NCBI GenBank assembly: GCA_037042185.1
Contig: JAXQJY010000033.1
Span: 930,001-994,000, forward strand
DNA from: Sordariomycetes sp. S80-01Y
Lineage: Eukaryota > Ascomycota > Sordariomycetes
Reading direction: 5' to 3'
DNA length: 64,000 nucleotides
The number at the start of each line of letters is the position of its first letter. Position 1 is the first letter of the stretch. A program made the translations under genes and the position numbers. This document shows, piece after piece, positions 756-29,537 of the stretch. The notes below the pieces were generated by a model. The model was not told the DNA's origin. It saw only the letters and a list, made by a program, of their open reading frames with translations, and ran no database searches.

Positions 756-2222
756 ATGCCTATCGCCCTTTCCCCCACTCGGCCGAAGAACGGCCTCACC
801 AAGTTCACCAATTGTCGCTTGCTGAAGGGCAATGACCTCGTCCATGAAGATCTTTGGGTGAGCTCGGTATCAGGCAAGATCATTCACAGCCAAGCCTCCT
901 TCTACGATGAGCTTGTACTTCCTGACAGGACCATCGACCTGGGTGGGCGTATTGTCGCCCCGGGGATGATCGAGTGTCAGCTCAATGGCGCCTTTGGCTT
1001 CAATTTCTCGACGCTGTTGGAAGACATGTCGCAATACGGGAAGAAGGTCAAGGAGGTCAACCGCCAGCTCGTGCAAACAGGAGTAACATCCTACATTCCG
1101 ACCATCACAAGTCAGCGACCTGAACTGTACCAACAGGTGAGTCACTGCGCGTGAAACAGTCTCGTTTCGAATCCTACTGGATCACCTGCTGATGCTTCTG
1201 TCAGGCCTTGCCATTTCTGGGACCATCCGGCCGAAAGAGATTGTCCGAGGACGGGGCTGAGTCTTTGGGCGCACACTGCGAGGGGCCATTCCTCAGCCCT
1301 ACCAAAAACGGCGTTCACAATGTTGATGTGATGAGAGAAGCGCACACATTTGCCGATCTTGAGGAGTGTTATGGGGCGGAGAACTTGAATGCTGTCTCAG
1401 GCGAAGACGAGATCCCCGTGAAGATGATTACGGCTGCTCCCGAAAGGGGGAACATGATGAATCTCATCCCTGAGCTGCGGTCAAAAGGCATCATCTACTC
1501 TATTGGTCACTCAGAAGCCACGTATGAAGATGCGTCGCAGGCAGTTGGGAACGGTGCTACGATGATCACACACCTCTTCAACGCAATGAGGCCGCTGCAT
1601 CATCGCAACCCGGGGATCTTCGGAGTCCTGGGCAAAGCCGAGAGCCATGCAAGGCCCTACTTTGGAATCATCTCGGACGGTATCCATCTTCATCCAACGA
1701 CCATCAAGATTGCCTTCAACGCGCACCCTGACGGATTCATTCTTGTCACGGACGCTATGCATCTGGTGGGTCTGCCTGACGGAGCCTACCCCTGGACAAA
1801 CGGAGAATATATGTGCAACATTGTCAAGAAGGGTTCTACGCTTCTGCTCGAGAATTCTGAGACTATTGCAGGAAGGTAAGTTGAAGCGGCGATTTAAGGG
1901 GTCACTGTGCCCCTGAACGCCACTGATGAGCACGCCCAGACCAGATTGCTGACGCGACTGACACAGTTCGATCACACTGCTTGAATGCGTGAATAACTTC
2001 CTACGATGGTCTGGAACAAGCATCCCTGCGGCGTTGAAGGCGGTAACGGCAACACCCGCTGCCATGCTCGGCCTCGAGGGCGTCAAAGGATCTCTGGACG
2101 CTGACGCTGATGCGGATCTGGTCATATTTTCGGAAGAGATGGAGGACGGCGCAAGCCAACTGGTTCTGGATGAGGTGTGGAAGTTTGGGGCCAAGGTCTC
2201 AAGTCTCAATTCATCCGTATGA
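756..2222 (+). CDS. dac1: N-acetylglucosamine-6-phosphate deacetylase
   Basis: Removes the acetyl group from GlcNAc-6-P to give glucosamine-6-P, the second cytosolic step of GlcNAc use. Three exons are inferred: 756-1136, 1205-1875 and 1967-2222, with introns GTGAGT..CAG and GTAAGT..CAG, giving 435 residues, the usual size for the NagA family (amidohydrolase superfamily). Seen motifs are the early beta-sandwich segment VAPGMIE, the metal-site region GAHCEGPFLSP, GHSEATY, HLFNAMRPLHHRNPG and the catalytic-aspartate segment ILVTDAMHLVG. The ATG at 756 (ATCATGCC) is the first in frame that gives a normal N terminus; the frame stays open upstream but without family similarity. Its neighbours are the Ndt80-like regulator, the deaminase and the sugar kinase, which fixes its role in the GlcNAc pathway. 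The family assignment is from recognised motifs, not a database search. Confidence 0.95.
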
Positions 2223-3719
2223 GGCAGCTGGAGAACTGTACGGTTAGGATCATTATGCGCCGAGAGAAGTCATCCCTTGGATCAAGCAGAGGCCGGGGCA
2301 GAGAGGAGGCTTGGGTCATGCAGATTAGAGTAGACTCTGCATTGCCGACAAGGTAAAATGTGCCGAAGGAATAGAAGGATGTCAACAGGAACGCCGTACC
2401 TTGCCGCAGGCTGCTGTGATCGCAAAGCACCCACCGACAGTGTCGAGGTGCGGTGGATCGCGACACCGGCGCACGTGTAAGCGCGGATATCTGCATGGGC
2501 CGTGCACCGTGCCGAGTACTTTTGGCACGCATTTGGGACAAAGCCGGTAAACCGAGACTTAGCTTTATCTTGATAAGAACAACATCTCAACCCACCAGCT
2601 ACGCTACCAGACACTTCCTGATCCTCCCTATCATTTGCAGACCGATTTGGTCTGATGATCATGGATTGCGAAGGAAGCTTGTGACGGCCAACGAGGCGAC
2701 CTCATGATAACGGGACGTCTGGTCCAATGCAACCCCACTGACACGGAGCGACGCTGCAACGACCCTGATCGACAGCGCGAGTCTTCGGCACAAGGCCGCA
2801 AATGGTGATTTATTATCAAACCTGGCGGCCGACGCTGTTTCGTCCTAGATCTTGTCAAGTTCGGATGCCGGTTCCCAAGGATGTTTCCGAACCCAGGGTC
2901 CACGAAGGATCGCTGAAGGGTTGGGGTAGTAATTACTACTAGCAGGTGCTGGCCGAGATGGTGAGACGATGGCATTGCGTCGCATGCGGATTGCCCCTCA
3001 GCATGCGGCACTCTCACCTGTTGTCGAATCCTTCGGCTCGGCTGTGGTGAATCAGTGCGAGACTCTCGTAGAAGTTGTGAAGAGGTGCAGGGCAAGATTA
3101 CCTTATGGATGGAGCCCAAGAGATAGACCCCTGGAAGCCGCTAGACGCTCCCCCGCCCCTAGCGGCCAATTACAGCAGGTGCGGCAGGCTGTTCTCGCCC
3201 GCTGATAGCCTGCGATGGGGGTGCTGGTGTGAGGCAGGACCGAATGCGTTCAGTGCCGGTGGGGTGCTTGTCGCACTTCCCTCTCAGCGGCCTTCGGGGG
3301 GGCGGGTCTAATTGCTAAGTACCACTGGCACAGGGCATGGCACTGGCAGTGGCCCGGGGTGTGCCCTCGGCCTGATCTCCAACGTCTCGGGGTGTCCTTC
3401 CTCAGCGTCGAGTCTCACGACGACACTCGCCGGCACCGCTCAACATCCCCCTCGTCCTCAACACCAGCTACATCATTCGCGTGCCATCCTTTGGGGTCTT
3501 CTATCATTTCGCTTGACACCAGCCAGCATCGCGATAACTTTTGAATAAAACTCGAGCCGGTGCCGCCAATTCAGCGTATCTTGCTCGACGACAGTGGCCC
3601 TCCCCACACTGCGCTTCACATCGCTTCCCCGGACTTTCGCACTCCTCGAAGTTCGGCCGAGAGCACCGCAACGACCACCTTGCATGGCCGCTCGCTGACA
3701 CGCGACGCTCGACGATGCC
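2223..3719. other. Intergenic, 1.5 kb, promoter and leader of the Ndt80-like gene
   Basis: No convincing gene. Short frames on both strands are mutually overlapping. The last 180 bases are C/A-rich like a fungal 5' leader and contain two upstream ATGs (listed separately). Confidence 0.5.
3684..3698 (+). promoter_or_regulatory. Candidate short upstream ORF (4 codons)
   Basis: ATG GCC GCT CGC TGA lies 36 nt before the start codon of the Ndt80-like gene. It would be translated only if the transcript leader includes it; the transcription start is not visible from sequence. Confidence 0.3.
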
Positions 3720-3789
3720 ATGGCGGCATTCAACTCCATGCCGCCCATGTCGTCTGGCTTGCCCAGCGATGCCATGGACCACCACATGA
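3715..3789 (+). promoter_or_regulatory. Candidate overlapping upstream ORF (24 codons)
   Basis: An ATG with A at -3 sits only 5 nt before the main start of the Ndt80-like gene, in another frame. It runs 24 codons and stops inside the main coding region. If the leader covers it, scanning ribosomes meet it first, so it could lower translation of the regulator. The main ATG has G at -3 and G at +4. This is inference from sequence context only. Confidence 0.35.
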
Positions 3790-5449
3790 ACCACCAGCAA
3801 CAAGGACAGCCCGAACTCGACCTACAGCACTTCAACACCCAGATCTTTGACGACGCGCTTCTGTAGGTCCAGCCTCGAGAGTTGCTTTGCGAAATGACTT
3901 CCAGGAGCTAATTCTCAGCATCAGGGATGGCCTACCCCATGGCTTACCGTTTACCCCCTCCTACGACTTCAACGACTTTGCGAACACCTTCGAAGACCCC
4001 TTCTCCTACTCTACCCGAACATTCGAACCACCCCCGCCAACGCACCACCATCAGGATGTGCTCAATGACGAGTCCTCTCCGCAGGAACTCGACAATAAAC
4101 TTCTCGGCTTTTCCGATCCTACGCTGACCGCGACTGTCGTAGACGACATGGGGAAAATGGGAGACCTGAACATGACGGCCGAATTATACGGCATGTTCTT
4201 CGTCGCGGAGGATGTCTTTGGCGCTGAGAACACGGGGAGACCATTGGAATTGACATGCTATCGACGTAACCTGTGGCAATGCTCGGGCCAAATCACCCTA
4301 CCGCGGATCATATCGCACATCGTTGACGATAAGGGGCGTCAAGTACCGCTGACGGACCTGTCAGCAACCATCACAGCCGTTGAGTCTATCGAGGGGAAAT
4401 CCACCGAAATCATTTCCATACCATGGAAGAGCTCAAATCCTCAAGCTACGGAGGAGTCGAAAGTAGCAGGTCCGCCGCCTAGTATATCGCTAGATCTAGC
4501 CTCGGGCCAGGAGCTTGATGCAAAGCGTATCAGTCTACCAGTATCCTGGAAGCGGCTACAGTTCAAACATGCCACAGCCAACAATGGCAGGAGAAAGGGG
4601 CTGCAACAACACTACGTTGTGCAAATCAGCTTGTTGGGCAATACCAAGTCGGGCGAATCCATCAAAGTAGCTGAAATACAGTCCGGCCCCGTCATCGTTC
4701 GCGGCCGAAGCCCCAGGAATTTCGACAGCCGGAAAGACGTGCCTCTCTCAGGAGATAAGAGGCTTGAGAGGAGGAACACGGCCACCTCCGCCGATGTGAA
4801 CATCAAGTCTGAGCGAGATGCGTTCCAGGCCCATGTGCAGAAGCAGCCCCTGGGCATGTTATCGGTATGTATTCGGCGTGCAATTGTCTACGTGCCGGTG
4901 TCTAATTGCATTTACAGCAGGGTAACGAATGGGCAAACGCGCAACCCTTCGCGCAATTAAGTCAAAGTCCACATCCAGCCAAACGACTTGCAATGTCTCC
5001 AACGATGGCGAAGCCCCCTGTTCCAGGATGGTCAAATAACGCCACGAACAAGAGCCTGAACCCCGCGCAAATGGCAAAGAATGTTCCTAGAAATAACAGC
5101 ACCACCGCGCCGATCAATCTGTCCTTGTCTGAAGACGAGCGCAGTCCAAATCGGTCGAGCGCTGAGATCTCTAGTCCTCAGATGGGCAAAGCGTACGCGG
5201 CTTCTGGCCTCGTAGCGGGAAGCAGCCCCCCCGAGGAGGAGGATCCGCTTTATGAGTACTTCCCTCTGAGCGTAGATGACTGGTGAGTTAGGTACTTCCA
5301 GCTGTCTCTTTTGCCGCTAACATTCCTCAAGGATGCCGCCCGTAGACGCCGTCTATCGACCGCACGTGGTCCATCACACAATCGTACCGCCCGAGATCAA
5401 GGCACAGCAAGTCAGCACCAAAGCAAAACGCTACTTCGCAGCTGAATGA
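3720..5449 (+). CDS. ron1: Ndt80/PhoG-like transcription factor of the GlcNAc cluster (RON1 type)
   Basis: Predicted DNA-binding regulator with a p53-like Ndt80 fold. Four exons: 3720-3862, 3925-4864, 4918-5282 and 5332-5449, giving 521 residues. The N terminus (residues 1-50) is rich in Met, His and Gln. The Ndt80 domain spans roughly residues 115-325: it opens with ELTCYRRNLWQCSG and ITLPRII, continues with VPLTDLSATITAVESIEG and IISIPWK, and ends with GPVIVRGRSPRNFDSRKD, the signature of filamentous-fungal Ndt80-like proteins. The C terminus is Ser/Pro-rich and ends in the conserved tail STKAKRYFAAE. In Trichoderma and Neurospora an Ndt80-family gene (ron1) sits in the GlcNAc cluster and is needed for GlcNAc use, and the same neighbourhood is seen here. 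The symbol rests on family plus position; other Ndt80 paralogues of these fungi (vib-1, fsd-1) are the alternatives. Confidence 0.88.
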
Positions 5450-7134
5450 GCTATCCGACGAAGGATATTCTGTCGCAGTATGTTTGCTTGGTCTAGTAGG
5501 GGTTTGATGGCTTACGGATCCCTCACTTTGGGTGGATTTGAATGTGTATGACTGAGTTATGAACATTCGGCTTGCACTTAGTGCGTTTGTTGATTTTGGG
5601 CTTGCCATTCCTGGGACATGGAAGATGTAACAATAGTCGAGCTACATTGTTTATACCCTGAGTATGTGGACATCGGAGGGCGTGCTAGCCGTTGAATATC
5701 GAGCAGTTGTCGTAGTGAGTCCATACTCGCCATGTCTGTTGCTCTAGATTCAAGAAGGTGTGGCTCATACAAGACACAATACGACCTGAACCGATGAGTT
5801 GGTCTTTCGATCGCTGACATCGTATTCCTAGGATTACATAAAGTCGCCTGAACTTGCCCGTCCTGTCCGCAGACCACGTCTTCACACGAGCATTCAGTGT
5901 CACGACCTCGACGAGCGCGTCGTGGCCGCAGGAGACTCAATGTGTGCAAGCCAGTGCCTGTACTAAGCCAGCTGGACTCACACAATGCCCGCACCCAAGT
6001 TTGCGGATTCTAACGCTACGCAACGCCACAATCACACTCGATCTCTGCGACTTGGACACTCAACATGGCAAATTATCATGGGTCCAGGACTTCAACAAAA
6101 GAGCTCTTCATCCTATACATGAGCACAAGGAGCGTTCTATGCTCTCCTATTCCGCTCGGCGTCTGTATAATGAGCAGATCGAGGATGTGCTCGAAGACGC
6201 TGTTGTTTCTTGGAAGCGTGTTTACGAAGGTGTAAAGCTGGCAGAGATTCTCGGAATAGGTCAAGATCAGCTTCCTGCAGGACAACCAAGATTTTAGCTC
6301 TTAGCGTGTCCTGTTTCCCTGATCTAAAACACAGCTTGGTCCCCGGCCCTCCAGCAAAGATAGGAGACAAGTACCCCTGGCTCCAGACTGTCGTGTCTCC
6401 ACTACGCCGCCGCCATCTTCATCAGAAGCGCTCTCCAAAAGCCCCAGACCTGCCCGTCGATTTGGACTTGCATGGTGCTAACTGCAATAGTGCCGCAGAG
6501 CTGTTTCTCAAACGCCGCTAGCTCAACGCTCTCACTAGCTCCAGTAGCCACGATTCCTTGGACGGGCTGGCGGCTCGGACTGATGGATAGACCGCGATTT
6601 CTGCACCGAATGCGAAGGAGTACTTCGACATCTGCAACGGTAGTAAGGCCAGGGAGTGACCTGCGGCTCTGATCTTGAGCCCTGCACAATTGAGCGGCGT
6701 GGGTGCAGGGACGCAGTGGCCCGGGCCGCCGGAAACGCAACGTAGTGTCTTTGAGATTCTTGCAGAGAACTACACCAGGTTGCCAAGTTCCACGCGATGC
6801 TGGATTGGGTGAAGCTATTGAGCGGTCTCTTTTATTCTCGTGGACTGTACACACCATATGACCCAGTATACACTTCGGCAGGCATGCTGAAAAGTCACTC
6901 GTGGTTAGACAAAGTTCGCGAAACCATAGGCTGGACCGGTTTGTGCTAAGGGCTTGATTCACTTTTCAAGCTCGTATGAAATTTCAACAGTAATCATTTG
7001 AAGTTCAGAACAGAACAGCCGCCGAATATGTGTATCGTCCTAACAATTTTGGTGTGTGAACGTAACCTGGTATCTACAATCCCTCAGATCTGCGAATCCC
7101 CCAATCCTGCACCAATATGCCAAAAGGTGGCGTT
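5450..7134. other. Intergenic between two convergent genes, 1.7 kb
   Basis: Lies between the 3' ends of the Ndt80-like gene and the deaminase gene. One plus-strand frame at 5854-6297 (147 codons) has a protein-like second half, but I recognise no family and see no matching splice partners. It could be a decayed or lineage-specific gene. Otherwise nothing is visible. Confidence 0.4.
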
Positions 7135-8314
7135 CTATGCCGTGATGGCGTTGTGGTGCAACATCTGCTGCTCGGGGTTAGGCGTGAGCCTCTTGTTCAA
7201 GCCAGGCTCCGGGATCCTCGAGGCCATCCTGTCCGGGACCAAGTCTGGCGATACGGAGCGCACTGGGTACTCCGCGGCGGGGGTGGCCCGCAGCAGGCGA
7301 GATGTGGTGGGCTGAGGCGCGAGGATGGTCGGTGATGTGACCTCCTCGACCTTGGTCCGTGGGACGGGGCCGTTGCCAGTGCGGACCTTCGAGGGGAGGA
7401 TCTGCTCGAAGCCTTCCTCGAGGGCCACCTTCTCAATGCTCTTGAAGTACTGAGAATGGGAAGTTAGCTGCGAGCTCACTTCAGAATAATGAGCGTGCGA
7501 CTCACCTTGACCGTCTTCACTTGCAACTCGGCTGTGGCATCTTCGTCCACAACGATCATAGGGTGGGGGTGCAGTTGCAGACTTGAGAGAGTCCACATGT
7601 GGTTGACACCCTGCTCAATGCACCTCTGCAGAGCCAACGACTTGCGCTGACCCAGAATGATAACGACAACCTCTCTTGCCTCCAGGACAGTCTGCACGCC
7701 GACCGTCAAGGCCATCCTCGGCACCTTTTTCACATCGTTGTCGAAGAAGCGCGAGTTGGCCAGGATTGTGTCGTAGGCCAACGTCTTGACGCGGGTGCGG
7801 CTCGCAAGACTTGAGCCCGGCTCGTTGAAAGCAATGTGACCGTCCTCGCCGATGCCGGCAAGGAAGAGATCGATGCCACCAACCGCCTTGATGGAGTCCT
7901 CGTAGGCTATGCACTCGGCTTCTAGATTGGGCGCGTTGCCGTTGAGGATGTGCACGTTGGAGGGGTGGATGTTGACGTGGGAGAAGAAGTTCTTCCACAT
8001 GAAGGAGTGGTATGACTCTGGGTGGTCGCGCGGGATGCCGACGTATTCATCCATGTTGAAAGTAACGACATTTTCAAAGGAGATCTATGCATGCTTAGTG
8101 GGAAGTTGGTCGTTGAGGAGACGTCACTGCATACCTCTCCAGCCTTGTATTTCTCTACTAGGATCTTGTAGACGACCAAGGGACTTGATCCTGTGGGGAG
8201 GCCCAACACGAAGGGGTTCTGGGGCGTTGGGTTGAAGGCCTTGATGCGATCAATGATGTACTTTGCGACGTAGGCGCTCGAGGCCTCGGCGTCATCGCGA
8301 ATGATGAGTCTCAT
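7135..8314 (-). CDS. dam1: Glucosamine-6-phosphate deaminase/isomerase
   Basis: Converts glucosamine-6-P to fructose-6-P and ammonia, the step that feeds GlcNAc carbon into glycolysis. Three exons on the minus strand: 8314-8135, 8084-7506 and 7449-7135, giving 357 residues. The NagB fold is clear: [20 protein letters not shown] at the start, [17 protein letters not shown] (catalytic Asp region) and [18 protein letters not shown] (catalytic Asp, His and Glu). Bacterial NagB has about 266 residues; this protein carries an extra C-terminal tail of some 90 residues rich in Pro, Ser and Thr, as fungal members often do. Transcribed divergently from the hexokinase-like gene and convergently to the Ndt80-like gene. 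Assignment is firm; the role of the tail is unknown. Confidence 0.94.
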
Positions 8315-10554
8315 GGTGACGTTGGAGAGGGATGAAACAAACAAAGACTAGCGTAGTTTGATGCAAGAGAAGAATTCTGGAAGAGACGGGGGTGTCAAGT
8401 GTCTCGGGATGTTACTTTGGAAAGGTAAGGTAGGTGCTCAATCTTCACTCGAGAGATCGAGGAGGAGCCAGAGGCAAGAAACAGACGCGAGCTGGGTGCT
8501 AATAAGAGACTCGCGAAGGCTGGGATCACGATACCAGCGGGGTCCTCGGAGGCGTCACCGTGTCATGTCACTTGGATCTGGAGGCGGACATTCCTATCGA
8601 GGGAGGATTCACTGACGGGCTAGGGGATGCAGCCCCCCTCCATCATGTCAGTCCGGGCCAAAGTATGATGGGAGGTTGTGGATGGGTGGCGGCAAAAGTG
8701 CTGCCGTTGGTGGTGGAAGCTGGTGATGGAGTGGCAGAAGGCAGAGGGCGTCGTCCAGGACGGGGCGTCGTCGTGGGGACTGGATGGAACGTCACCGGAG
8801 CCGGGACCCGCTTTTGCCCCGGGGTCCGCCGGTCTGGTTAACACGTTGCGGGTGGCAGCCATACTGTGAAGGGAACGGCCTTCCTTCTGCCTGCGATTGG
8901 ACGTCTTTGATTGCATCGCAAAGCTCGGAACCTGCCGGGGTTCATGACATTGTTGGCGCTGGAGGCAAGTGTCGTCGAGTGTCACCGTGGCGAGTATGCC
9001 GGAGGTACCCCATTGGGAAGAGCCACGACCCCATCGTCGGTGAGACGTCGTACTCAACGCGTCGAAGAGTCATTTGTGAGCTCTGATGGCTAACGATGGG
9101 TTATGTTGGTCACGTCATGTGGCCTGGATTCATGTTGTGCTGACCTTCACAAGAAGGACGAGCCGTGCCGGTCAGCAACTCGCCCAGATGGAGCTGTAAA
9201 TTGCTTGATGCGCTTCCTCCGGGAAGCAGGATACCATATGGCGGGTCTTGCCTGCTTTATCCATTCGCGAATATCTTGAATCTGGCCGGCAATTTCGCGC
9301 TTCTGTCGAAACATTTCAGGAGTGTTTCAGTGCACGGGAAGCCCTGCTCTCGGTGGGAGGCGTGGTGGTGGCATGCCGCTGTCCCCAGTGTTGGACACAA
9401 CCGCCCCATTCGCTGGTGTTCGAGAATTCATAGTGGATGTCTGTGCTCTTTTCACTTGCCTGACGTCCCACGAATCTCAATAATATGCCAGGACATACCT
9501 GCTAGGAAACGTGCTGGGGGGTGCTTGCGGATCCTAACATTTATGACTGACAGAATAACCAGGACGTTGGTAGGCCCTGGTGGCTGATGTGTCGGCTGCC
9601 GCCTTTCGCAACGTTACAGCCAAACCTCTGCACTCCACTTCCTCATCCCCTTTTCCCAACAGCATCTGTGATCACCACTGGAGATTGAGCCTACTGGCGC
9701 AAGCGCGCGCGCACAGGCTTCAGCAGCGATGGATACCCTGGCGGACGCTCCCGGAAGTCCAGCGGGTAGCTGGCCCTTCCAGAGTTTTCCTTGGCTCGCG
9801 CTGCCTGTTCGCTGAGGAGAAGTGAGCGCGGCTACACGACTCGCACTGGACCGGACCGGACTGGCCATCTCGTCTGCCGCCTGGGCTATCTGCGACGTTA
9901 GGTCCCATCAGCCTCAACATCGCCATGCGCTAACAGACTCCAGCACCTCTCAGGCCTGTAACGTCGGGACCAAGGTGACAGCACCACTCGCGGCCTGCCT
10001 GTTTGGCACTTGCGCTGTTCCAGAGTTCTATGCGACCCTCTCTGCCGCTCACTCTTCCTCTTGCTGCTGGCTGGACGGGGCAGGTTTCATCCAGCGCCTC
10101 GTATACGCTGCTGCTTGTCTCTGGCTGAGGGCTCGTCTCGTTTCTTCTGGGGCATCCAGTGGCCGCTTGGGTTACCCGTCGATCCGATCAAGGTTTTGCT
10201 GCTGCCATTCGTATTTGCTGTTGGGAGCGTCGCCTGGTTTGTTTTGCTTCATGTCGACATCTGCTCCTTCGTTGCGGTCAACCTCAGCCCAAACAGCGCA
10301 TTGAGAAACGCCGACCAACGACCGTGGCACTGCAGCGCGCACAAACCCTTTTTCTCTCCAACTTTTCTTGAGGCTTGAGGAGGCCGTAAGCCTCTCCCGT
10401 TCTTGGTATTTACTCTGCCCCCCTGTCCATCACCGGAGACCCTCGACTACTTTATATCGCTCTTCGTTGCTCGACATTTGATTCAGCTATCTCCGGTCAA
10501 GTCTTGTGTTTTGAGTCTACCCCTAGCGCCACAGTGCAGCCACTCGTTTCTGCC
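8315..10554. other. Divergent promoter region between dam1 and hxk3, 2.2 kb
   Basis: No gene is recognised. The frames at 8560-9100 and 9165-9590 are short and overlap on both strands. Transcription leaves this block in both directions, so it is the likely control region for the deaminase and the kinase. The part just before 10555 is T/C-rich, as expected for a leader. Confidence 0.5.
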
Positions 10555-12275
10555 ATGGCGTCTCTCCGGAAATCAGTCCTGGCCGTCATTGTCAAGAGCT
10601 TGCTGCGGGGCAAGTCCTTGATTCAAGCCATCCTTGCCTACTGGATAAGCCCTCTGAGCTTTGAAGAGACCAAGAAAGGCCAAGTCGTTACCCATGCATC
10701 CGCAAGAAGCATCCAGGAATTTCTCAAAGAAGCCGAAGCGGCCTTCGTTGGCCCTATCAGTGGAGAGGGGCTCTCTGCGCTATCCAGGAGACTCAAGAAG
10801 CAGTTCCTGGACAGGCTTGAGTCCGACTTCGAATGCATGCTGCCTTCATACAGCCATAAGCTACCAACAGGTGACGAGTCTGGACAGTATCTGGCTTTGG
10901 ACGTTGGCGGTTCAACCTTGAGAGTGGCGGTCGTGGAGCTCTCTGGACGCGATGACAATGGTCCTCAGGAGAGCAAGATTCTTCGCATTCGCAGCTTTAA
11001 GATCACCCGAGAGATCAAGGACTTGGAGGGCGCTGCCTTCTTTGACTGGATGGCCGCTAGGATTGCTGAGACTCTATCAACGGGGATGAAGCAAGAGCAC
11101 AGCCCCGACCAGCCTTTACCAATGGCGTTAGCTTGGAGCTTTCCCATAGAGTACGTCCTCTTCTTCTTCTCTTCACTATTGTATAGCTATGCTAACCGCA
11201 CACAGGCAAACATCGTTGGGCGCCGGCAAGCTCCAGGCTATGGGCAAGGGCTTCATGGCGAACAAGGGGTTGTTGGGTCAAGACCTTGGGGAGATTGTCA
11301 CATCAGCGTGCAAGCGAGAAGGACTCGATGTCGAGGTGGAGGCTATCATCAACGACTCAAGCGCCTGTCTCCTGTCGCAAGCTTATACTCGTACCACAAC
11401 ACGCTTCGGTCTCATTCTCGGCACAGGCACCAACATCGGCGCATACCTTCCCATCCCCCTGATCGGCCGAAAGAAGTTCGGTACGCGACCAGCTGGATGG
11501 TTTGACACGGCAACTGATGTCATCGTCAACACAGAGCTGGGCATGTTTGGTCATGGGATCTTGCCTCTGACGAGGTGGGACCGAGAACTCCTAGTCGGCC
11601 ACCCCCGGCCCGACTTCCAACCCCTGGAGCACCTTGTCAGTGGCATGTACTTGGGCGAAGTCGCTCGCTACGCCCTCATCGAGGCGATCGAGACTACTGG
11701 CATTTTTGGAGGAATCGTGCCATCGTCGCTCAACGCCCCTTATTCTCTCGGTACTGATACAATATCCCAAATTGAGGGGTAAGTTGACCATGTTTACATC
11801 CCTATCATCTTTTAATACTAACATTACTAGCGACAACACCGAGGAGCTCACCGAAGCCAAGGAGATATTCTCCACACGACATCCATCATCCCACGTCCCC
11901 ACAACCTCGGATCTTTCTGCTCTACGATTACTAGCCTCCTTCATCTCCACACGGTCGAGTGCTATAATCGCGACCTGCGTTTACACCCTATGGGATGTCC
12001 GCCGCGAGTCTCAGCAAAACTACATCGCCACCCAACCTCCTTCCTCGCCCCAACGGCAAGCGGCGGAGGCCGATCTGGACGTGGGCAAGACGATGGTCGC
12101 GTTTAACGGCAGTGTTATCGAGCAATATCCGAACTACCTCACCAACTGCCAACGCTACATCGATGAGCTGGTAGAGGGAAACGGCGGCGGTGAGGGAATA
12201 GAGTTGGTGCCGGCAAAGGAAAGTTCGCTGCTCGGCGCGGCCGTAGCCTCAGCGTGCGTCAAGGCCTCGCCATGA
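10555..12275 (+). CDS. hxk3: Hexokinase-family N-acetylglucosamine kinase
   Basis: Predicted to phosphorylate GlcNAc to GlcNAc-6-P, the entry step of the pathway. Three exons: 10555-11150, 11206-11778 and 11831-12275, giving 537 residues. It has the two-domain hexokinase fold but altered signatures: the phosphate-1 loop reads ALDVGGSTLRVAVVEL (glucose hexokinases have LDLGGTNFRV), the sugar/catalytic segment reads IINDSSACLLSQAY (instead of NDTVGTL), and the phosphate-2 loop reads LILGTGTNIGAYLPI. The catalytic Asp of IND is kept. The adenosine-site region near the C terminus (KESSLLGAAVASA) is also present. The start at 10555 (GCCATGG) is the best context; the frame is open upstream without an ATG. 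The clustering with deacetylase and deaminase and the divergent motifs favour GlcNAc kinase (NAG5/HXK-3 type) over a glucose hexokinase. Confidence 0.88.
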
Positions 12276-20429: not shown

Positions 20430-23400
20430 ATGACTTCAGGGCGGCAAAGACTGGTCGTTGTAGGCCTGGGGATGGTTGGGATCGCCTTCATGTGAGTGAA
20501 ATGCTCTAGTTGCGTTGGTTCGACTGAAAGGAGCTGACACCGTCTCAGCGAAAAGCTGATGAAGTACGATGCCCGAACGAGGGAATACGATATCACAGTC
20601 CTGGGCGAGGAATCACATCTAGCCTACAACAGAGTTGGCTTGACAAGCTACTTTGAACACCGAAAGATCGAAAATCTGTACCTGAACTCGGCAGAATGGG
20701 TATGCGACCTCGCCGCTGTTTTGATGCGTTGGAAGGCTAATCAGCGTGACAGTACGCCCAAGCTCCGGAAGGGGCCCTGGGGTGGCATGTCAACACGCAA
20801 GTCACTTCAATAGACTCGGAAGCGAAGACTGTCAGTTGCGCAAACGGTGAGGTGGTACCCTATGATATCTTGGTGCTGGCCACGGGGTCGAATGCCATTC
20901 TCCCACAACACACGCCGGGGTTCGACGCACGGGGAGTGTTCGTCTACAGAACCATCGACGACCTCACTAGATTGATTGACTTTGCTGCGTCGAAGAAGGG
21001 GACAGTAGGAGCAGTCGTAGGAGGAGGTCTGCTGGGCCTCGAAGCTGCCAAGGCCATGATGGACCTGGAATGCTACGACAAAGTCAGACTCATCGAACGC
21101 AACCGCTGGGTACTGTCTCGCCAACTTGACGGTGATGCAGGGACAATGGTAGTTCAGCAAGTCAGAGACCTTGGCTTGGACGTCATGCTCACCAAGCGTG
21201 TTGGCAAGATCAAAGCAGACGAGAACAACAATGTGACTGGCGTGGTCTTTGAGGATGGCGATGAGATGGAGTGCTCGACTATATGCTTCGCCATTGGAGT
21301 CAGGGCAAGGGATGAGGTAGCGCTGAAGTCAGGCATTACCTGTGCAGAGAGAGGAGGCGGCATCATTGTCGATGACAACTTGAGCACCAACGTCAAGGAT
21401 GTGTACGCCATCGGCGAATGCGCGAGCTGGCAAAATCAGACCTTTGGTCTCATCGCCCCGGGCATTGAAATGGCCGATGTCCTCGCCTTCAACCTGACAC
21501 AAGCCAAATTGCACAAACCGAGGCTGTTCAAGAGGCCGGATCTGAGCACCAAGCTCAAGCTCATGGGTGTGGACGTCGCAAGCTTTGGCGACTACTTTGC
21601 AGACCGGGATGGCGCCAAGTACCTGCCGCCGAAGTACGTCAGGGACAAGAAAGCTGCCAACGGCGTAGACGGGGCAAATGGTGTCAATGGGCATGGGCCT
21701 CGAAAGGGTGCAGATGTCAAAGCTTTGACCTACCAAGATCCCTTCGCGAACGTCTACAAGAAGTACATCTTCACCCCTGACGGGAAGTACCTGTTAGGAG
21801 GCATGATGATCGGCGACACATCCGACTACGTCAAGTTGGTGCCGATGGTCAAAGGCATGAAGGAGCTGGATGTTCCACCGGGAGAGCTGATCGTCGGGAC
21901 AAAGGGAGGAGATGATCCCGATGACCTAGATGACGACACTCAAGTTTGTTCTTGTCACAATGTGACCAAGGGCGACATCGTCAACGGGGTCAAGGACGGG
22001 TCTTGCAAGGATCTCAGTGCTGTCAAGACCTGCACCAAAGCGGGCACTGGCTGTGGTGGCTGCATGCCACTCATCACCACGATCTTCAACAAGACCATGT
22101 TGTCTTTGGGCAACGAGGTTAAGAACTACCTTTGTTCTCACTTCAACTACTCCCGCGCGGATCTGTATAACATCGTCATGGTCAAGCGATTGACGACGTT
22201 CCCCGAGGTCATGCGCGAGGCGGGCAACGACAAGGAGAGCTCTGGCTGCGAACTCTGCAAGCCCACCGTGGGCAGCATGTTTTCGTCGCTATGGAACCGC
22301 CACGTCATGGACAAACCCACGCATGGCTTGCAAGATACAAACGACCGTTTCCTCGGGAACATTCAACGGAACGGCACCTATTCCGTCGTACCTCGCGTTT
22401 CCGGTGGAGAGATCACCCCTGATAAGCTTGTTGCAATCGGAGCTGTGGCCAAGAAGTACAACCTCTACACCAAGATAACCGGCGGACAGCGCATTGATAT
22501 GTTTGGCGCCAAGAAGCAGGATCTGCTGGACATCTGGGGTCAGCTCGTGGCTGCCGGCATGGAGTCGGGACACGCCTATGCCAAGTCCCTGCGAACCGTC
22601 AAGAGCTGCGTCGGCACAACATGGTGCCGCTTCGGCATCGGCGACAGTGTGGGTATGGCAGTGAGGTTGGAAGAGCGGTACAAGAGCATTCGTGCGCCGC
22701 ACAAGATCAAGGGAGGCGTGAGTGGTTGCGTCAGGGAGTGTGCTGAGGCACAGAACAAAGAGTGAGTGCTTCCTGAATCCTCGTACCAACAATCAGCAAC
22801 TAACAGTTATGTAGCTTCGGTCTCATCGCCACGGAGAAGGGCTTCAACATATTCGTTGCCGGTAACGGAGGCGCAAAGCCTAAGCATTCCGAGCTTTTAG
22901 CGAAGGACGTGCCACCGGCAGAGGTGATTCCCATCCTCGATCGCTACCTAATGTTCTACATCCGCACCGCCGACAAGCTACAGCGCACTGCACGTTGGTT
23001 AGAAAACCTACCTGGTGGCATGAAGTACCTACAAGAAGTCATCCTGGAGGACAAGCTCGGGATATGCGCGTCTTTGGAGGCTCAGATGCAAGAGCTCGTG
23101 GACAGCTTCTTTGATGAGTGGGCCGAGGCGATCAAGTCTCCCTCGATTGCTGCGAAATTTAAGCAATTCCAAAACACGCCAGAGAACGTCGAGAACATGG
23201 AGGTCGAGCAAGATCGAGGACAGCCAAGGCCCGTATTCTGGGCCAAGGAGTCAGCAACGGAAGACTTCAAGGGCCTAAAGGATCGCTGGAGCACCATGAG
23301 CTGGCAGCCCGTACTCGAGGCCTCGCACTTTGACGGTGCTGATGAAAGTCCAAACGGAATCTCCGCAACCATCAAGCGAGGCGATACGCAACTGGCCGTA

Positions 23401-23877
23401 TGGCGCTTCCGGGGCAGGTTCTACGCAACGCAGCAGATGTGCCCTCACAAGCGCGCATTTGTTCTGTCGGATGGGCTGCTCGGCCAGGAACCGTGCAACG
23501 ACTCGCAAAAGGAGCCGCAGACGTCGCCTTGGGTCTCCTGCCCTCACCACAAGCGCAACTTTGACCTCTCGGATGGAGCCTGCAAGACCGACTCGGCGCT
23601 GTCGATTGCAACGTTTCCCGTCGAGGTTCGCGCGGACGGTCTGGTGTACCTGAAGCTGCCCCCGATAGAGGAGCTCGACGCGGCGCTGGGGACGAAGAAG
23701 TGGATGGTCAAGAAGGGCGAGAGCGGCGAGTCGCCGTTTGCCGAGCTCGACAAGAAGATCAAGTTTGTAGGGTTGAGGGGCAAGAAGCCGTCTGCGATGC
23801 CTCATGCCCCGACCAAGATGACGAGACCTGTAGAGTTGATGGCCGGGGGTGGGTGCGGCAGTGCGCCGGATTGGTAG
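20430..23877 (+). CDS. niiA: Assimilatory nitrite reductase [NAD(P)H]
   Basis: Reduces nitrite to ammonium with six electrons in the cytosol (niiA/nit-6). Four exons: 20430-20491, 20549-20699, 20753-22761 and 22815-23877, giving 1094 residues, normal for fungi. Order of domains: FAD/NAD(P)H oxidoreductase ([11 protein letters not shown] at the start; [13 protein letters not shown]; second dinucleotide fold [17 protein letters not shown]); a BFD-type [2Fe-2S] domain with [12 protein letters not shown] and [11 protein letters not shown] (about residues 450-510); nitrite/sulfite reductase halves with siroheme/4Fe-4S cysteines in CVGTTWC and [15 protein letters not shown]; and a C-terminal Rieske domain with CPH and CPHH ligands (MCPHKRAF and [14 protein letters not shown]). 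The start is chosen because ATG leads straight into the FAD motif after a short first exon. The promoter carries NirA- and GATA-type sites. No nitrate reductase or nitrate transporter gene is adjacent in this window. Confidence 0.96.
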
Positions 23878-24526
23878 CAGACGCTCATGAAGGTTAGAAA
23901 AGCAAGGAAAACGAGACTACGGGCTCGGGTTGTTCGAATACAAAACTTCTACTCCATGCTTCACGGTCCCGCATTGTCTGAGATGGATCGGGGCGCACTA
24001 ACACCCCGAGAGCGCATCCCATCCCCGGCACTAAAGCAGCCTCAGGGCCCTATGACGTTGCGCAGGGCAGCCGTGAAGGATGCATAGTCGCAACCCTCGG
24101 CATTCCGGCTGATCGTCGACGCATCGAAGCTAAGTCGATTGATTAATTCCAAGTGCCTCTACCTGCCCTGGCCCATTTGGTGAATAATTGTTCTCTTTTC
24201 AGCGTTCATGTCTGCATGCACGCACTGGCCGTCGCAGCGCTAGTACTGCTCGGTTATTAGTGCCCTGTTGTCAGTACTAAGCACGTATCTCAGTAGACTA
24301 CTCCCTGTACTGTAGGTACCTGTAAGTGGCCTGTCGCGGCGCCGCGCCCCAGCCGGACGAACCGGATTTAGGGGCTCAGCCAACCTTTCTGCATGCAGCG
24401 TCTTCATTTGTCAACCTCATCCACCACTCTCACTTCACTTGCCCGAGATCTCACCTCTCCCACTTTTCATCTCGCTCTCGAATAAGCACTCTATCGAAAC
24501 CAACTCGGGGGGGTATTGGCCGCGAC
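23878..24526. other. Intergenic, leader of the Zn2Cys6 gene
   Basis: No gene recognised. The last 150 bases are C/T-rich (CTCACTTCACTTGCC and similar), typical of a 5' leader. Confidence 0.5.
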
Positions 24527-26894
24527 ATGTCATTCTACAACGGCACCAACGGCTACGCCCATCCCGGCGATGCCGGCCAGCTGCCCCCAACCTCGTCAAC
24601 ATCTTCACCCGCCTCTCAACAGGCCCAGGCTCAGGCTCAGGACGGCCAAGGCCAGCCCAAACCCTCGGGTCGCCAGCTGTCCTGTGCGCTATGTCAACGT
24701 CGCAAGATCAAGTGCGACCGCACGACGCCCTGCTCAAACTGCGTCAAAGCCAATGTCGTCTGCACCCCGAGCACTCCCGCCCCGCCGCGCCAGCGCATGA
24801 GGCCCAGGCGGGATCTCCAGGAGCGGCTGGCGCGGTGCGAGAGTCTGTTGAGGCAGTATTCGGAGGCCGATCGCGCCGTGCCGAGCGATGTCTTCTCCCC
24901 GATGGCCATGAGTGCCAGCGGTGCCAGTACGCCTAATGGAGGGCTCGGGGTCAAGACGTACCAGATGCAGGGCGGGAGTGAGAAGAAGAGCCCAGGCGCC
25001 ACGCCCAGTGGGAGGATTGTCCAGGAGAGCGCCATCTCTGGACCTGGGGGTGTGAGGTTTGTTGATGGCCAGTTGTGGGAGAAGTTAAATGACGAGGTAC
25101 CTTCACACCGTCCACGCCACCTAAGGTCCTGTCCACTAACACACTAGCACATAGATCACGAACATGAGGAGTCTAATCGATTCCGAGGATCCAGAGGGCG
25201 CTATTCCTCCCTACGATCACCAGAAAGACTTCGAGCAGACGAGCAACTGCCCCAGTCCTCAGAGCGATGAGAGACCTAGCCTCGATCCCGTTCAAGCTTT
25301 CAAGTTGTGGCAGATTTTCCTCGACAGGGTCAACCCACTCATCAAGATTATCCACGCTCCCACTCTTCAACCCTTACTGGTTCAGGCAGCAACCGACATC
25401 ACGAGCGTGCCGCTCGACTATCAAGCCCTGCTGTACTCCATCTTTGGCCTGGCTAGCATCGCCCTCTCCAACGATGAAGCCACTTCTATCATCGGCTGCA
25501 ACCGGGACCAAGCAGCACACCGTTTCACGAAGGCCACATTCCACGCTCTGACACGATTCGACTTTCTTCGGCGGTACAACATGGTCGTCCTCCAAGCCCT
25601 CGTCCACAACCTAATCATCCTCCAAAGCCAATACAACCGTCACGCCTCTTGGGTCCTGTCTGGCTCCCTCGTCCGCGTGGCCATCAGCATGGGCTACCAC
25701 CGCGATGGCGAGGCTCTTAAGCTCCCTCCGTTCGAAACCGAAATGCGTCGTCGAATTTGGTGGCAGATTGTCAACCATGATCTCACGCTGACTGTCGATT
25801 GTGGGTTCAAGCATATATCCATCCCTAAGGACTTCGACACGAAACAGCCCCTGAATCTAAACGATGCCGACATGTATCCCGACGCTTCGGGTGAACTGAA
25901 ATCTAGGGAGGGTCCTACCGAAATGGCTTTCATCTTGGTGGTCAATCGCGTAACGCAGTACATGCTAGACGAAGAGTCCCGTCTCACCGTGGAATCTACC
26001 ATCCTCGGCCAAGGACCCTCCGATGCACCGCTCGACCCTTACGTCTTGGAACGCAATCGACTCTTCATCCAATCTCTCGAAAGAGACCTTCTGGAAATAG
26101 AGCAGCGCTTCCTCTCCCCGACCGCGGGCAATGCCCACCTCGCCGCCCTCGGTTTCAGGCCGCATCTCATCGACCGCCTCAACGACATGGTGCGCCCCAT
26201 GACCGAGGCCCCAGAATGGGGCAACGAAGTCCAGGGACCCAAAGACAATCTCTTCAAGCTCCTACTCACGACTAATGAAAACATCGGCGATGCCTACCTC
26301 TCCATGAAAGAATGGGGGTTTGGCTGGTTCATCCGCATGCATTTCCATCTGGAAATCCTGGCGACGCTGTCGTCCTTCATGTATCAGAAGCCGCTCAGTA
26401 ACTTCGCCGACCGCTCATGGCGCATGTTCGAACTTTTCTACCGCGAGTTCCCCGAAATCGGCAACCTGGATCAGCGCGCATACCTGGCGCAGGCGCAGTT
26501 CACCCTCAAGGCCTGGGACGCGCGAGAGCAGGCCTACCACAGCTCCGGCTCCATGCTTCAAGTGCCTGACTTCATCGTACAGCTGCGACAGCAGGTACAG
26601 CAGCACGGCACGCCTGCAGCCTCTGGAGCCTCCCGCGGACCTCTGAACGGTGCGAAGGGAGTGGATGCACAGCAGCAGCAGGGGGGTGTGCAGATGCCGC
26701 AGGGGATGCCGATGCAGGATCAGCCGTTGAGCTTCATGCCCGAGGAGCAGATGGGGAGCAATTCCTTGCACAGCAGTTTCTTGTCATGGGACTTCGCCGG
26801 CGACATGGGAGGCATGGGTGCTTTGGGAGACATGAATGGGGTTTTCGGGCCGTACGACGATGGGAGTGGTGGTGGTCCCAATCCATTCCAGTGA
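24527..26894 (+). CDS. Zn2Cys6 fungal-specific transcription factor
   Basis: Nuclear regulator of the Gal4-like class. Two exons, 24527-25096 and 25155-26894, giving 769 residues. The Zn cluster is at about residues 49-80: [15 protein letters not shown] and [12 protein letters not shown] provide the six cysteines; a basic linker and short coiled segment ([17 protein letters not shown]) follow, as in dimerising members. The fungal-specific trans domain runs from about residue 240 to 560, with [23 protein letters not shown]-like region [17 protein letters not shown] and [15 protein letters not shown]. The C terminus is Gln-, Met- and Gly-rich ([15 protein letters not shown]), a likely activation region. 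It sits tail-to-tail with the alpha-xylosidase gene, so a link to plant polysaccharide use is possible but not shown. It is not XlnR by its zinc cluster sequence. Target genes unknown. Confidence 0.87.
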
Positions 26895-27141: not shown

Positions 27142-29537
27142 TCACAGCGACTCAATCGAGACCTCGGCGTCTCCATCCAGGCTCCTGCCCTTCTCGCTAA
27201 CCTTGACCTCGCCCTTCAGAGCCGAGGTGTCCTTGAGCTTACCGTCCTCGCCGACCTCGAGCGTGCCGACCACGGTGCCGTCGTAATTGACGACATTCGC
27301 CCTGGCACCAGCCTTGACCTCGTACAGGGCCACCTCGACGTCCTTCTCGTAGTCGAAGACGCTGCCGCTCTGCTTCCTGTCGCCCAGCACGAGGATCGTG
27401 TTCTCCCTAACGTACAGCGGCAGGGTGCCGAAGGCGTGCTTCTCCCTGAACCAGCCCGGGCCGGACTTGACCTCGTTGGTGAAGTAGGACGTCCACCTGC
27501 CCTTGGGGAGGTAGAATTCGACCTCGCCCGACTCCTCGAAGATGGGCGCGGCGAGGAGCTGCGAGCCGATCATGAACTGGCGGTCCACCATCCACGACGT
27601 CGGGTCCTCGGGGAACTCGAGGGCGAGGGTGCGGAGGGAGAGGGGGATGCCGCCCTCCATGGACTCCATGCCCTGGGCGTAGAAGTAGGGCATCAGCCTC
27701 GTCTTCAGGCCGGTCCACTTGGCCAGCGTGCGCGAGCAGCCCTCCTCGGTCCTGTCGTCGTTGTCGACGGTCCACGGCACGCGGTACGAGCTGCTGCCGT
27801 GCAGGCGCGAGTGGCTGCACAGCAGGCCCATGGCCACCCAGCGCTTGTAGACCCAGGGCGGCGGGGAGCCCTCGAAGCCGCCGATGTCGCAGCTCCACCA
27901 CGAGAAGCCGCTGACGCCCATGGACAGGCCGCCGCGGATGGACTCGGCGAGGGCTTCGGGGGTGGACTCGCAGTCGCCGCCCCAGCCGAGCGGGAAGCGC
28001 TGGGAGCCGGCGCACGCGGCGCGGGCGAAGAGCACGGCCTCGTCCTTGCCGTAGCGCGCCTGGAGCGCCTCGTAGACGATCTGGTTGTAGGCGAAGGCGT
28101 AGTAGTTGTGCATCTTGTGGGGGTCGACCGTCTTGTCGTGCCACTGGACGTCCAGCGTGGGGATGCGCTCGCCAAAGTCGGTCTTGAGGGCGTCGACACC
28201 CATGTCGAAGAGGCTGTTGAGGCACTCGGTGTACCAGGCCCTGGCCTCGGGGTTGGTCACATCCACGAGGCCCATGCCGGCCTGCCAGAGATCCCACTGC
28301 CACGTGTCGCCGTTCTTGCGCTTGAGGAGGTAGCCCTTCTCGGCGGCGTGCTTGAAGGCGGCGCCGTGCTGGGCGATGTAGGGGTTGATCCAGACGCAGA
28401 CCTTCTTGCAGAGCCCCTGCTCCTTCATGCGGGCGATCTGGCCCTTGGGGTCGGGGAAGCGCTCGGAGTCGAAGACGAAGTCGGTCCAGGTAAAGGCCTT
28501 CATCCAGAAGCAGTCGAAGTGGAAGACGTCGACGGGCGAGCCGCGCTCCTTCATGCCCTCGAGGAAGGAGGTGACGGTCTTCTCGTCGTAGCTGGTGGTG
28601 AAGCTGGTGGTGAGCCAGAGGCCGAAACTCCAGCCGGGCACCTTTCCAGGCTTGCCGGTCAGGATGGAGTACTTCTTGAGCACCTCCTTGGGCGACGGTC
28701 CGTAGATGATGTAGAACTTGATCCTCTGCCCCTCGAGGACGTGCTGCACCCTCGTGGCTCGCTCGCTGCCGATCTCGAGATCGACGCGGCCCGGGTTGTC
28801 GATGAAGATGCCGTAGCCCCTGTTGCTCATCCAGAAGGAAACGTTCTTGTAAGCCTGGTCGCTGCTCGTGCCGCCGTCGGCGTTCCACAGCGACACGGAC
28901 TGGCCAACCTTGTTCCAGGCGGTGAAGCGCTCGCCCAGGCCGTAGACGCCCTCGCCGACGGCCAGGTTCGTCTGGAAGAACATGTAGTGCTTGAGGTCGC
29001 GCATGTCGCCGGTCTGCATGGGCGTGCTGGGCGCAGGGGTGTAGGCGAAGCCGACGCTGCGTGCTCCGAGGTTGGTGAGCTGCGTGCTCCCGTCGGCGCT
29101 GTGGAACTTGATGTTGAACTTGTGAGGGTCTGCGCCGATGGTGGCGGACAGGGAGCCGGAGTTGAGAGTCGTGCCCTTGTCGCTCTTTGTGACCTTGCCC
29201 GAGACTGAGGGCTTGCCATCCGGGAAGAGGTCGAAGTGAGGGCCCAGATTCTGGGCACCGGCCCAATGTGCTGACTCGACCGAGATGACACCGTCGAACT
29301 CAGCCTTGACGTCCTGGACAGGATTAGCACGGCTGTGATGGACCTTGCAAGCTGATGCCTTACCATTGTGATGGTGGGTGTGTTGAGAGTGTGGCCTCGA
29401 GAATGGATCTGCCTGGTCGGGCACAGCAGACTCAAGCCATTCTCGCCGTCGAGGGGAGCTACATCGTAGACCTCCTCAGCATAGTCGGTGTGAACGCCCT
29501 CAGCGGGCAGCCACATGCCATCGCGAAGCTTGACCAT
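27142..29537 (-). CDS. GH31 alpha-xylosidase (YicI-like), intracellular
   Basis: Predicted to release alpha-linked xylose from xyloglucan oligosaccharides or isoprimeverose. Two exons: 29537-29364 and 29313-27142, giving 781 residues. The first exon was recovered from a GTAAGG..CCAG intron and starts MVKLRDGMWLPAEGVH, a conserved beginning of fungal YicI-type proteins. Catalytic features: the nucleophile Asp (about residue 437) in DALKTDFGERIPT, where KTDFGER is the alpha-xylosidase form of the GH31 motif, and the acid/base Asp (about residue 505) in LGWGGDCEST. Also GEGVYGLGERFTAWNK in the N-terminal beta domain and DVFHFDCFWMK in the barrel. No signal peptide is seen, so it should act inside the cell. 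The gene is very GC-rich at third positions, which explains long antisense open frames over it. Divergent from the secreted GH3 gene. Confidence 0.9.

Follow-up and report, generated by a model that had tools for sequence, protein, structure and literature searches.

Do the three enzyme genes for N-acetylglucosamine (GlcNAc) catabolism and the gene for an Ndt80-family transcription factor that lie together near one end of a 64,000-nucleotide stretch of the Sordariomycetes sp. S80-01Y genome form a functional cluster, is the cluster complete, and was its regulator recruited from meiosis? The stretch, here called the window, corresponds to bases 930001 to 994000 of contig C16 in a genome of 30,874,049 bases and 16 contigs. 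Very probably, four of the five genes that make up the conserved ascomycete cluster for GlcNAc catabolism and sensing lie in the window, with the fifth, ngs1, just outside it. A second set of amino-sugar genes, centred on a MurQ-family gene, was found on another contig, C12, and is discussed further below.

The GlcNAc cluster on contig C16

Stop-to-stop frames were collected on C16 and splice models were then built from them by hand. The gene models, families and gene order given here, and the residue changes in NGS1, are direct observations on this genome. The features are as follows, in window numbering unless C16 is named.

C16:926299-929603 (approximately -3701 to -397), minus strand: ngs1/nag3, GH3-GNAT protein, 927 amino acids, six exons, outside the window and divergent from dac1
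1-755, no strand: the part of the ngs1-dac1 intergenic region inside the window, a candidate shared divergent promoter (whole gap approximately 1.15 kb)
756-2222, plus strand: dac1, GlcNAc-6-phosphate deacetylase, 435 amino acids, three exons (756-1136, 1205-1875, 1967-2222)
3720-5449, plus strand: ron1, Ndt80-family transcription factor, 521 amino acids, four exons (3720-3862, 3925-4864, 4918-5282, 5332-5449), the start codon being a model choice
8314-7135, minus strand: dam1, glucosamine-6-phosphate deaminase, 357 amino acids, three exons (8314-8135, 8084-7506, 7449-7135)
8315-10554, no strand: divergent dam1-hxk3 intergenic region, approximately 2.2 kb
10555-12275, plus strand: hxk3, hexokinase family, probably a GlcNAc kinase, 537 amino acids, three exons (10555-11150, 11206-11778, 11831-12275)

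All four window genes were intact in the spliced models, and their introns start with GT and end with AG. The last long frame of ron1 stops at 5284-5286, and a 49-nt intron bypasses this stop and leads into the final exon, which runs to 5449. An earlier note on this DNA had given the order, strands and outer limits of the cluster, and these hold, with 756 being the dac1 ATG and 12275 the end of the hxk3 stop codon. The four genes that it named are present, but its list was incomplete, since ngs1 adjoins dac1 beyond the window edge. Three frames in the gaps, of 151 and 187 amino acids between ron1 and dam1 and of 162 amino acids between dam1 and hxk3, were tested and had no Pfam match at E 0.001.

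The enzyme assignments of the earlier note survived profile searches, in which DAC1 and DAM1 scored above curated cut-offs and HXK3 fell in the hexokinase family. DAC1 reached 239.2 bits with TIGR00221 nagA (cut-off 225.65), and a solved relative is the NagA structure PDB 7nut (E 2.3e-83). DAM1 scored 398.9 bits with TIGR00502 nagB (cut-off 236.9), has the NagB structure PDB 1ne7 as a solved relative (E 1.4e-114), and carries a C-terminal tail of approximately 97 residues past the NagB domain. Both Pfam hexokinase domains were found in HXK3 (PF03727, 187.3 bits; PF00349, 149.4 bits), its solved relatives in a PDB search were hexokinases, and it was 29-35% identical to hexokinase-like matches at three other loci in the genome.

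The C16 cluster is ordinary in kind, a further example of the published T. reesei and ascomycete cluster. The genes hxk3, dac1, dam1, nag3 and ron1 are clustered in filamentous ascomycetes, and N. crassa NCU04729 lies in such a cluster (PMC4950302), so that the kinship with the Trichoderma and Neurospora clusters claimed at the outset was borne out. In T. reesei, dac1, dam1, hxk3, ron1 and nag3/ngs1 lie together as they do here (PMC4950302; PMC12176254). The NAG cluster of Candida albicans, with Rep1 and Ngs1, involves the same enzyme, regulator and sensor families; Ngs1 of C. albicans is encoded outside its NAG cluster, whereas ngs1 here is inside the cluster (PMC5063960).

NGS1, the likely GlcNAc sensor

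From its sequence, the gene at C16:926299-929603 is best read as ngs1/nag3. Its product matched PF00933 (GH3) with 207.1 bits, and its best solved relative was the fungal GH3-GNAT enzyme RmNag (PDB 4zm6, E 7.5e-91), which aligned in two stretches, GH3 and GNAT; in the GNAT region residues 483-831 align with 435-768 of 4zm6. RmNag catalysis uses an Asp190/His192 dyad and the nucleophile Asp268 (PMC4680927). In the alignment, G199-S200-N201 of NGS1 stand at Asp190-Ser-His192 of RmNag and Glu275 stands at the nucleophile Asp268. The nucleophile and dyad have likewise been lost from T. reesei NGS1, for which the discussion of the paper places G-S-N at 206-208 and the legend of a figure lists Gly206, Asp208 and Glu282; that source is inconsistent on residue 208, which is Asp in the legend and Asn in the discussion (PMC12176254). 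The protein here, with six exons and 927 amino acids, is close in build to T. reesei NGS1, with six exons and 932 amino acids, and the losses at catalytic positions match (PMC12176254). The GlcNAc-binding residues of Candida Ngs1, D74, R145 and K175-H176 (PMC5063960), are kept as D86, R157 and K187-H188. It has been suggested that Pezizomycotina Ngs1 orthologues may still have hydrolase activity (PMC5063960), but the residues found in this NGS1 argue against its retention. By analogy with its orthologues, NGS1 would sense GlcNAc here as well.

Further sequences related to either half of NGS1 were seen elsewhere in the genome. In the C4:509166 region a 483-amino-acid frame resembles NGS1 in its C-terminal half (30% across residues 453-743); Pfam detects GNAT but not GH3 in this frame, which is possibly a free-standing NGS1 paralogue. 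GH3 matches on C6 and C14 were considered as candidate active NagZ enzymes. The one at C6:779469, a frame of 377 amino acids with a KHFPGLG motif and a start that by eye resembles a signal peptide, is a NagZ-like candidate.

RON1 and the Ndt80 family

RON1 matched PF05224 (NDT80_PhoG) over residues 156-317 with 139.5 bits (cut-off 27). A search of the genome with this profile returned four stretches at three loci, on C16 (ron1), C15 and C4, and the DNA-binding region of RON1 was 42.2% identical to the C4 paralogue and 30.0% identical to the C15 paralogue. By resemblance, we tentatively take the C4 paralogue to be VIB-1-like and the C15 paralogue to be FSD-1-like. When RON1 was searched against the PDB, no Ndt80 structure appeared at E values up to 1, and the sole match, to myelin regulatory factor, was weak (E 0.05).

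The earlier note regarded the Ndt80-like gene as a case of a meiotic factor recruited to a sugar pathway. Such recruitment is improbable, because RON1/XprG and VIB-1 form one branch of the family and Ndt80/FSD-1 another, VIB-1-like genes being confined to Sordariomycetes and Leotiomycetes (PMC4950302), and because the genome has three family members. As judged from sequence, the cluster regulator probably represents a separate, older branch, and the meiotic Ndt80 was probably not recruited. It is also very unlikely that RON1 regulates meiosis or the general response to starvation and is located here by accident. The Aspergillus nidulans orthologue of RON1, XprG, does have a role in producing proteases during carbon and nitrogen starvation (PMC4950302), which would suit such a function, but the two additional family members, the closer resemblance of RON1 to the C4 paralogue than to the C15 paralogue, and the requirement for the T. 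reesei orthologue in cluster induction (PMC4950302) speak against it.

Promoter motifs and proposed working of the cluster

Motifs were counted in four intergenic stretches on C16 and four on C12, with one convergent control in each set, and compared with 300 Markov resamples of each stretch. The motifs were Ndt80-type sites (CRCAAAW, GNCRCAAAW and CACAAA) and a CreA-like site (SYGGRG). None of them was clearly enriched in the C16 or C12 promoters in these resamples. Among promoters, the smallest fractions were 0.073 (SYGGRG upstream of dam2) and 0.100 (CRCAAAW between anmK and dac2, 2 seen and 0.57 expected), and the lowest fraction overall, 0.013, belonged to CACAAA in the C12 convergent control. 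No 9- to 12-mer was common to all three GlcNAc promoters. The two divergent promoters, ngs1-dac1 and dam1-hxk3, had two 12-mers in common, CAGAAGCGCGAA and AGAAGCGCGAAA (or the complements of these), which overlap one another; with 0.37 expected and up to 3 found in 60 resamples, they were treated as chance.

In the proposed working of the cluster, GlcNAc would enter the cell and bind NGS1 at the GH3 domain, which appears to lack activity. With its GNAT domain, NGS1 would then work together with the Ndt80-family RON1 to turn the enzyme genes on. HXK3 would phosphorylate GlcNAc, DAC1 would remove the acetyl group, and DAM1 would yield fructose-6-phosphate and ammonium. The HXK3 substrate, the regulation and the sensing in this scheme are those that orthology with T. 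reesei and C. albicans would predict. T. reesei strains deleted for ron1, for nag3/ngs1 or for the three enzyme genes show poor growth or none on GlcNAc, and the other cluster genes need ron1 for induction (PMC4950302).

Several observations weigh against this account. CRCAAAW was seen 0, 1 and 1 times in the three C16 intergenic promoters where 0.42, 0.64 and 0.97 were expected, so no common RON1 site emerged, and the ngs1-dac1 region in particular (0 seen, 0.42 expected) showed no enrichment. The GNAT part of NGS1 had no Pfam match at E 0.001, and its assignment comes from the alignment with 4zm6. HXK3 is probably the GlcNAc kinase, a designation drawn from cluster position and orthology only. 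Finally, partial growth on GlcNAc remains after deletion of ronA in A. fumigatus (PMC12584764), and RON1 is therefore not necessarily essential in every species. That the C16 genes are mere chance neighbours without a shared function is scarcely credible, since fairly large intergenic gaps (1.2-2.2 kb) and the want of a common promoter motif are set against three consecutive pathway steps together with a known regulator family and a known sensor family in 16 kb of 30.9 Mb, and against the clustering of the same gene set in other ascomycetes (PMC4950302).

A second amino-sugar gene set on contig C12

A search of the genome for further copies of the enzyme genes revealed one more nagA and one more nagB, both on C12, separated by 7.5 kb and together within 9.7 kb. 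Of the 7 nagA matches listed, three stretches lay on C12 and two on C16, while the remaining two, on C2 and C3, were weak and N-terminal; the 4 nagB matches listed fell at 2 loci. The surrounding 33 kb of C12 were inspected, and the genes named here, given in order along the contig, stand among other frames.

C12, beside dam2, minus strand: Zn2Cys6/Fungal_trans factor, unspliced frame
C12:1061501-1062709, plus strand: dam2, nagB family
C12, between dam2 and murQ, minus strand: major facilitator superfamily (MFS) carrier, unspliced frame
C12:1066055-1067294, plus strand: murQ (MurQ-family, TIGR00274), six exons, 325 amino acids
C12:1067542-1068963, minus strand: anmK (AnmK-family, PF03702), four exons, 424 amino acids
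C12:1069688-1071166, plus strand: dac2, nagA family
C12, after dac2, minus strand: beta-lactamase-family protein with a start that by eye resembles a signal peptide
C12, after the beta-lactamase-family gene, minus strand: short-chain dehydrogenase, unspliced frame

Identity is 62.8% between dac2 and dac1 and 67.8% between dam2 and dam1, so both C12 genes look like fungal duplicates. No hexokinase match and no Ndt80 match was found on C12 in the genome searches. A rough estimate of the chance of this grouping, assuming uniform gene placement and partners within 10 kb on either side, is approximately 3e-9.

In bacteria, AnmK converts anhydro-N-acetylmuramic acid (anhydro-MurNAc) to MurNAc-6-phosphate, MurQ converts this to GlcNAc-6-phosphate and D-lactate, and NagA and NagB complete the path. 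All four families of this bacterial recycling of MurNAc and anhydro-muropeptides are present in the C12 set, within 9.7 kb. The C12 set differs from the bacterial one in that its genes have introns, an MFS carrier lies among them, a Zn2Cys6 factor is adjacent, and nagA and nagB are the apparent fungal duplicates.

The MurQ-family protein and the AnmK-family kinase

The C12 MurQ protein is a full-length member of the single-SIS family and scored 353 bits with TIGR00274, the equivalog model of MurNAc-6-phosphate etherase (cut-off 302). Among solved structures, bacterial MurNAc-6-phosphate etherases matched it with E 1.5e-81 to 5.4e-77 (4lzj, E 1.6e-81), compared with 4e-22 for glucokinase regulatory protein. 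Residues E94 and E125 sit in the aligned motifs DASE(I/C)PP and VEGAED, at the positions of what we take to be the catalytic glutamates of E. coli MurQ, E83 and E114. Besides a weak 24.1-bit match elsewhere on C12, murQ was the only MurQ locus among the matches listed. A scan with C12 MurQ, which covers only sequences containing one of six short patterns, gave 25 loci, made up of 24 bacterial records, several of them metagenome-assembled genomes, and one archaeal metagenome-assembled genome. The best segments were 37-52% identical, and no recent donor of murQ was found among these 25 loci.

The whole kinase protein scored 230.4 bits with PF03702, the AnmK family (cut-off 24), and it belongs to the same protein family as the levoglucosan kinase of Lipomyces starkeyi (PDB 4yh5/4zxz). 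Two more AnmK-family genes were found in the genome, on C15 (C15:1214390) and C13 (C13:101160). The C15 kinase is far closer to the Lipomyces enzyme (728.5 bits). The C12 kinase stands apart from kinases of the L. starkeyi type, being 43.0% identical to the genome's own C15 homologue and placed beside murQ. Scores against bacterial AnmK structures did not separate the two, with 144.1 bits (C12) against 136.8 (C15) for 3qbw, and 137.8 against 177 for 3cqy. The case for the C12 kinase as an anhydro-MurNAc kinase is one of context and not of sequence.

An anhydro-MurNAc route or a duplicated pathway

We put the chances about even that the C12 set works as a route for anhydro-MurNAc or MurNAc. The fuller proposal, that C12:1061501-1071166 is a second, separately regulated amino-sugar cluster which takes the bacterial wall sugar anhydro-MurNAc to fructose-6-phosphate, could equally well prove right or wrong. 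Under this proposal, anhydro-MurNAc would be taken up by the MFS carrier and phosphorylated by the AnmK-family kinase, MurQ would cleave the product to GlcNAc-6-phosphate and D-lactate, and the dac2 and dam2 products, as dedicated copies, would carry the path on to fructose-6-phosphate. AnmK adds the phosphate as it opens the anhydro ring, so that no GlcNAc kinase would be needed, and this fits with the lack of hexokinase matches on C12.

The alternative is that the set represents a duplicate pathway for GlcNAc or levoglucosan, or that the MurQ-like gene is regulatory in the manner of a glucokinase regulator, and that MurNAc has no part in it. We consider this rather unlikely, although several observations favour it. 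The close paralogy of dac2 and dam2 with dac1 and dam1 would be expected from duplication, and a second dacA/nagA/ronA set has been described in A. fumigatus Af293 (PMC12584764). The closest solved relative of the C12 kinase was the Lipomyces levoglucosan kinase, with 343.9 bits as against 144.1 for bacterial AnmK; the kinase fell below the cut-off in all 14 of the NCBIfam AnmK models listed (best 342.4 against 387), and by PF03702 it was the lowest of the three in the genome, the C15 and C13 proteins scoring 287.7 and 253.8 bits. In Pfam, the MurQ-like protein matched the SIS domain of glucokinase regulatory protein best (PF22645, 81.7 bits). This last match is opposed by the score above the etherase equivalog cut-off and by the solved etherases, which rank far above glucokinase regulatory protein. 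Levoglucosan is converted to glucose-6-phosphate, for which neither NagA nor NagB is required; the genome also has a separate and far closer levoglucosan kinase on C15. The lack of hexokinase and Ndt80 matches on C12 in the genome searches speaks against the alternative as well.

A limited search of the open-access literature, judged mostly by titles and abstract openings, found no description of a fungal MurNAc cluster. Fungal proteins annotated as AnmK have been assayed on levoglucosan (PMC9476349). Transcripts of MurNAc-6-phosphate etherase have been reported from a rumen ciliate (PMC6925433) and murQ transfers in ants (PMC13320244), and MurQ in a eukaryote is therefore not new. The novelty may instead lie in a clustered fungal MurNAc route.

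Other frames in the window

The frames at 20750-23877, 24326-26894 and 27142-29475 of the window look by eye like a nitrite reductase, a Zn2Cys6 regulator and a GH31 glycosidase, respectively.

Significance

The C16 cluster adds one more genome in which the GlcNAc enzymes, regulator and sensor are kept together. The same genome offers a contrast between this GlcNAc cluster, with RON1 and NGS1, and a MurQ-centred cluster with a Zn2Cys6 factor nearby. Should the MurNAc reading of the C12 set be true, some fungal members of the levoglucosan kinase family may be anhydro-MurNAc kinases, which bears on the true substrates of AnmK- and levoglucosan-kinase-like proteins in fungi, and the fungus could use bacterial wall sugars inside its cells, which bears on how fungi live off bacteria.

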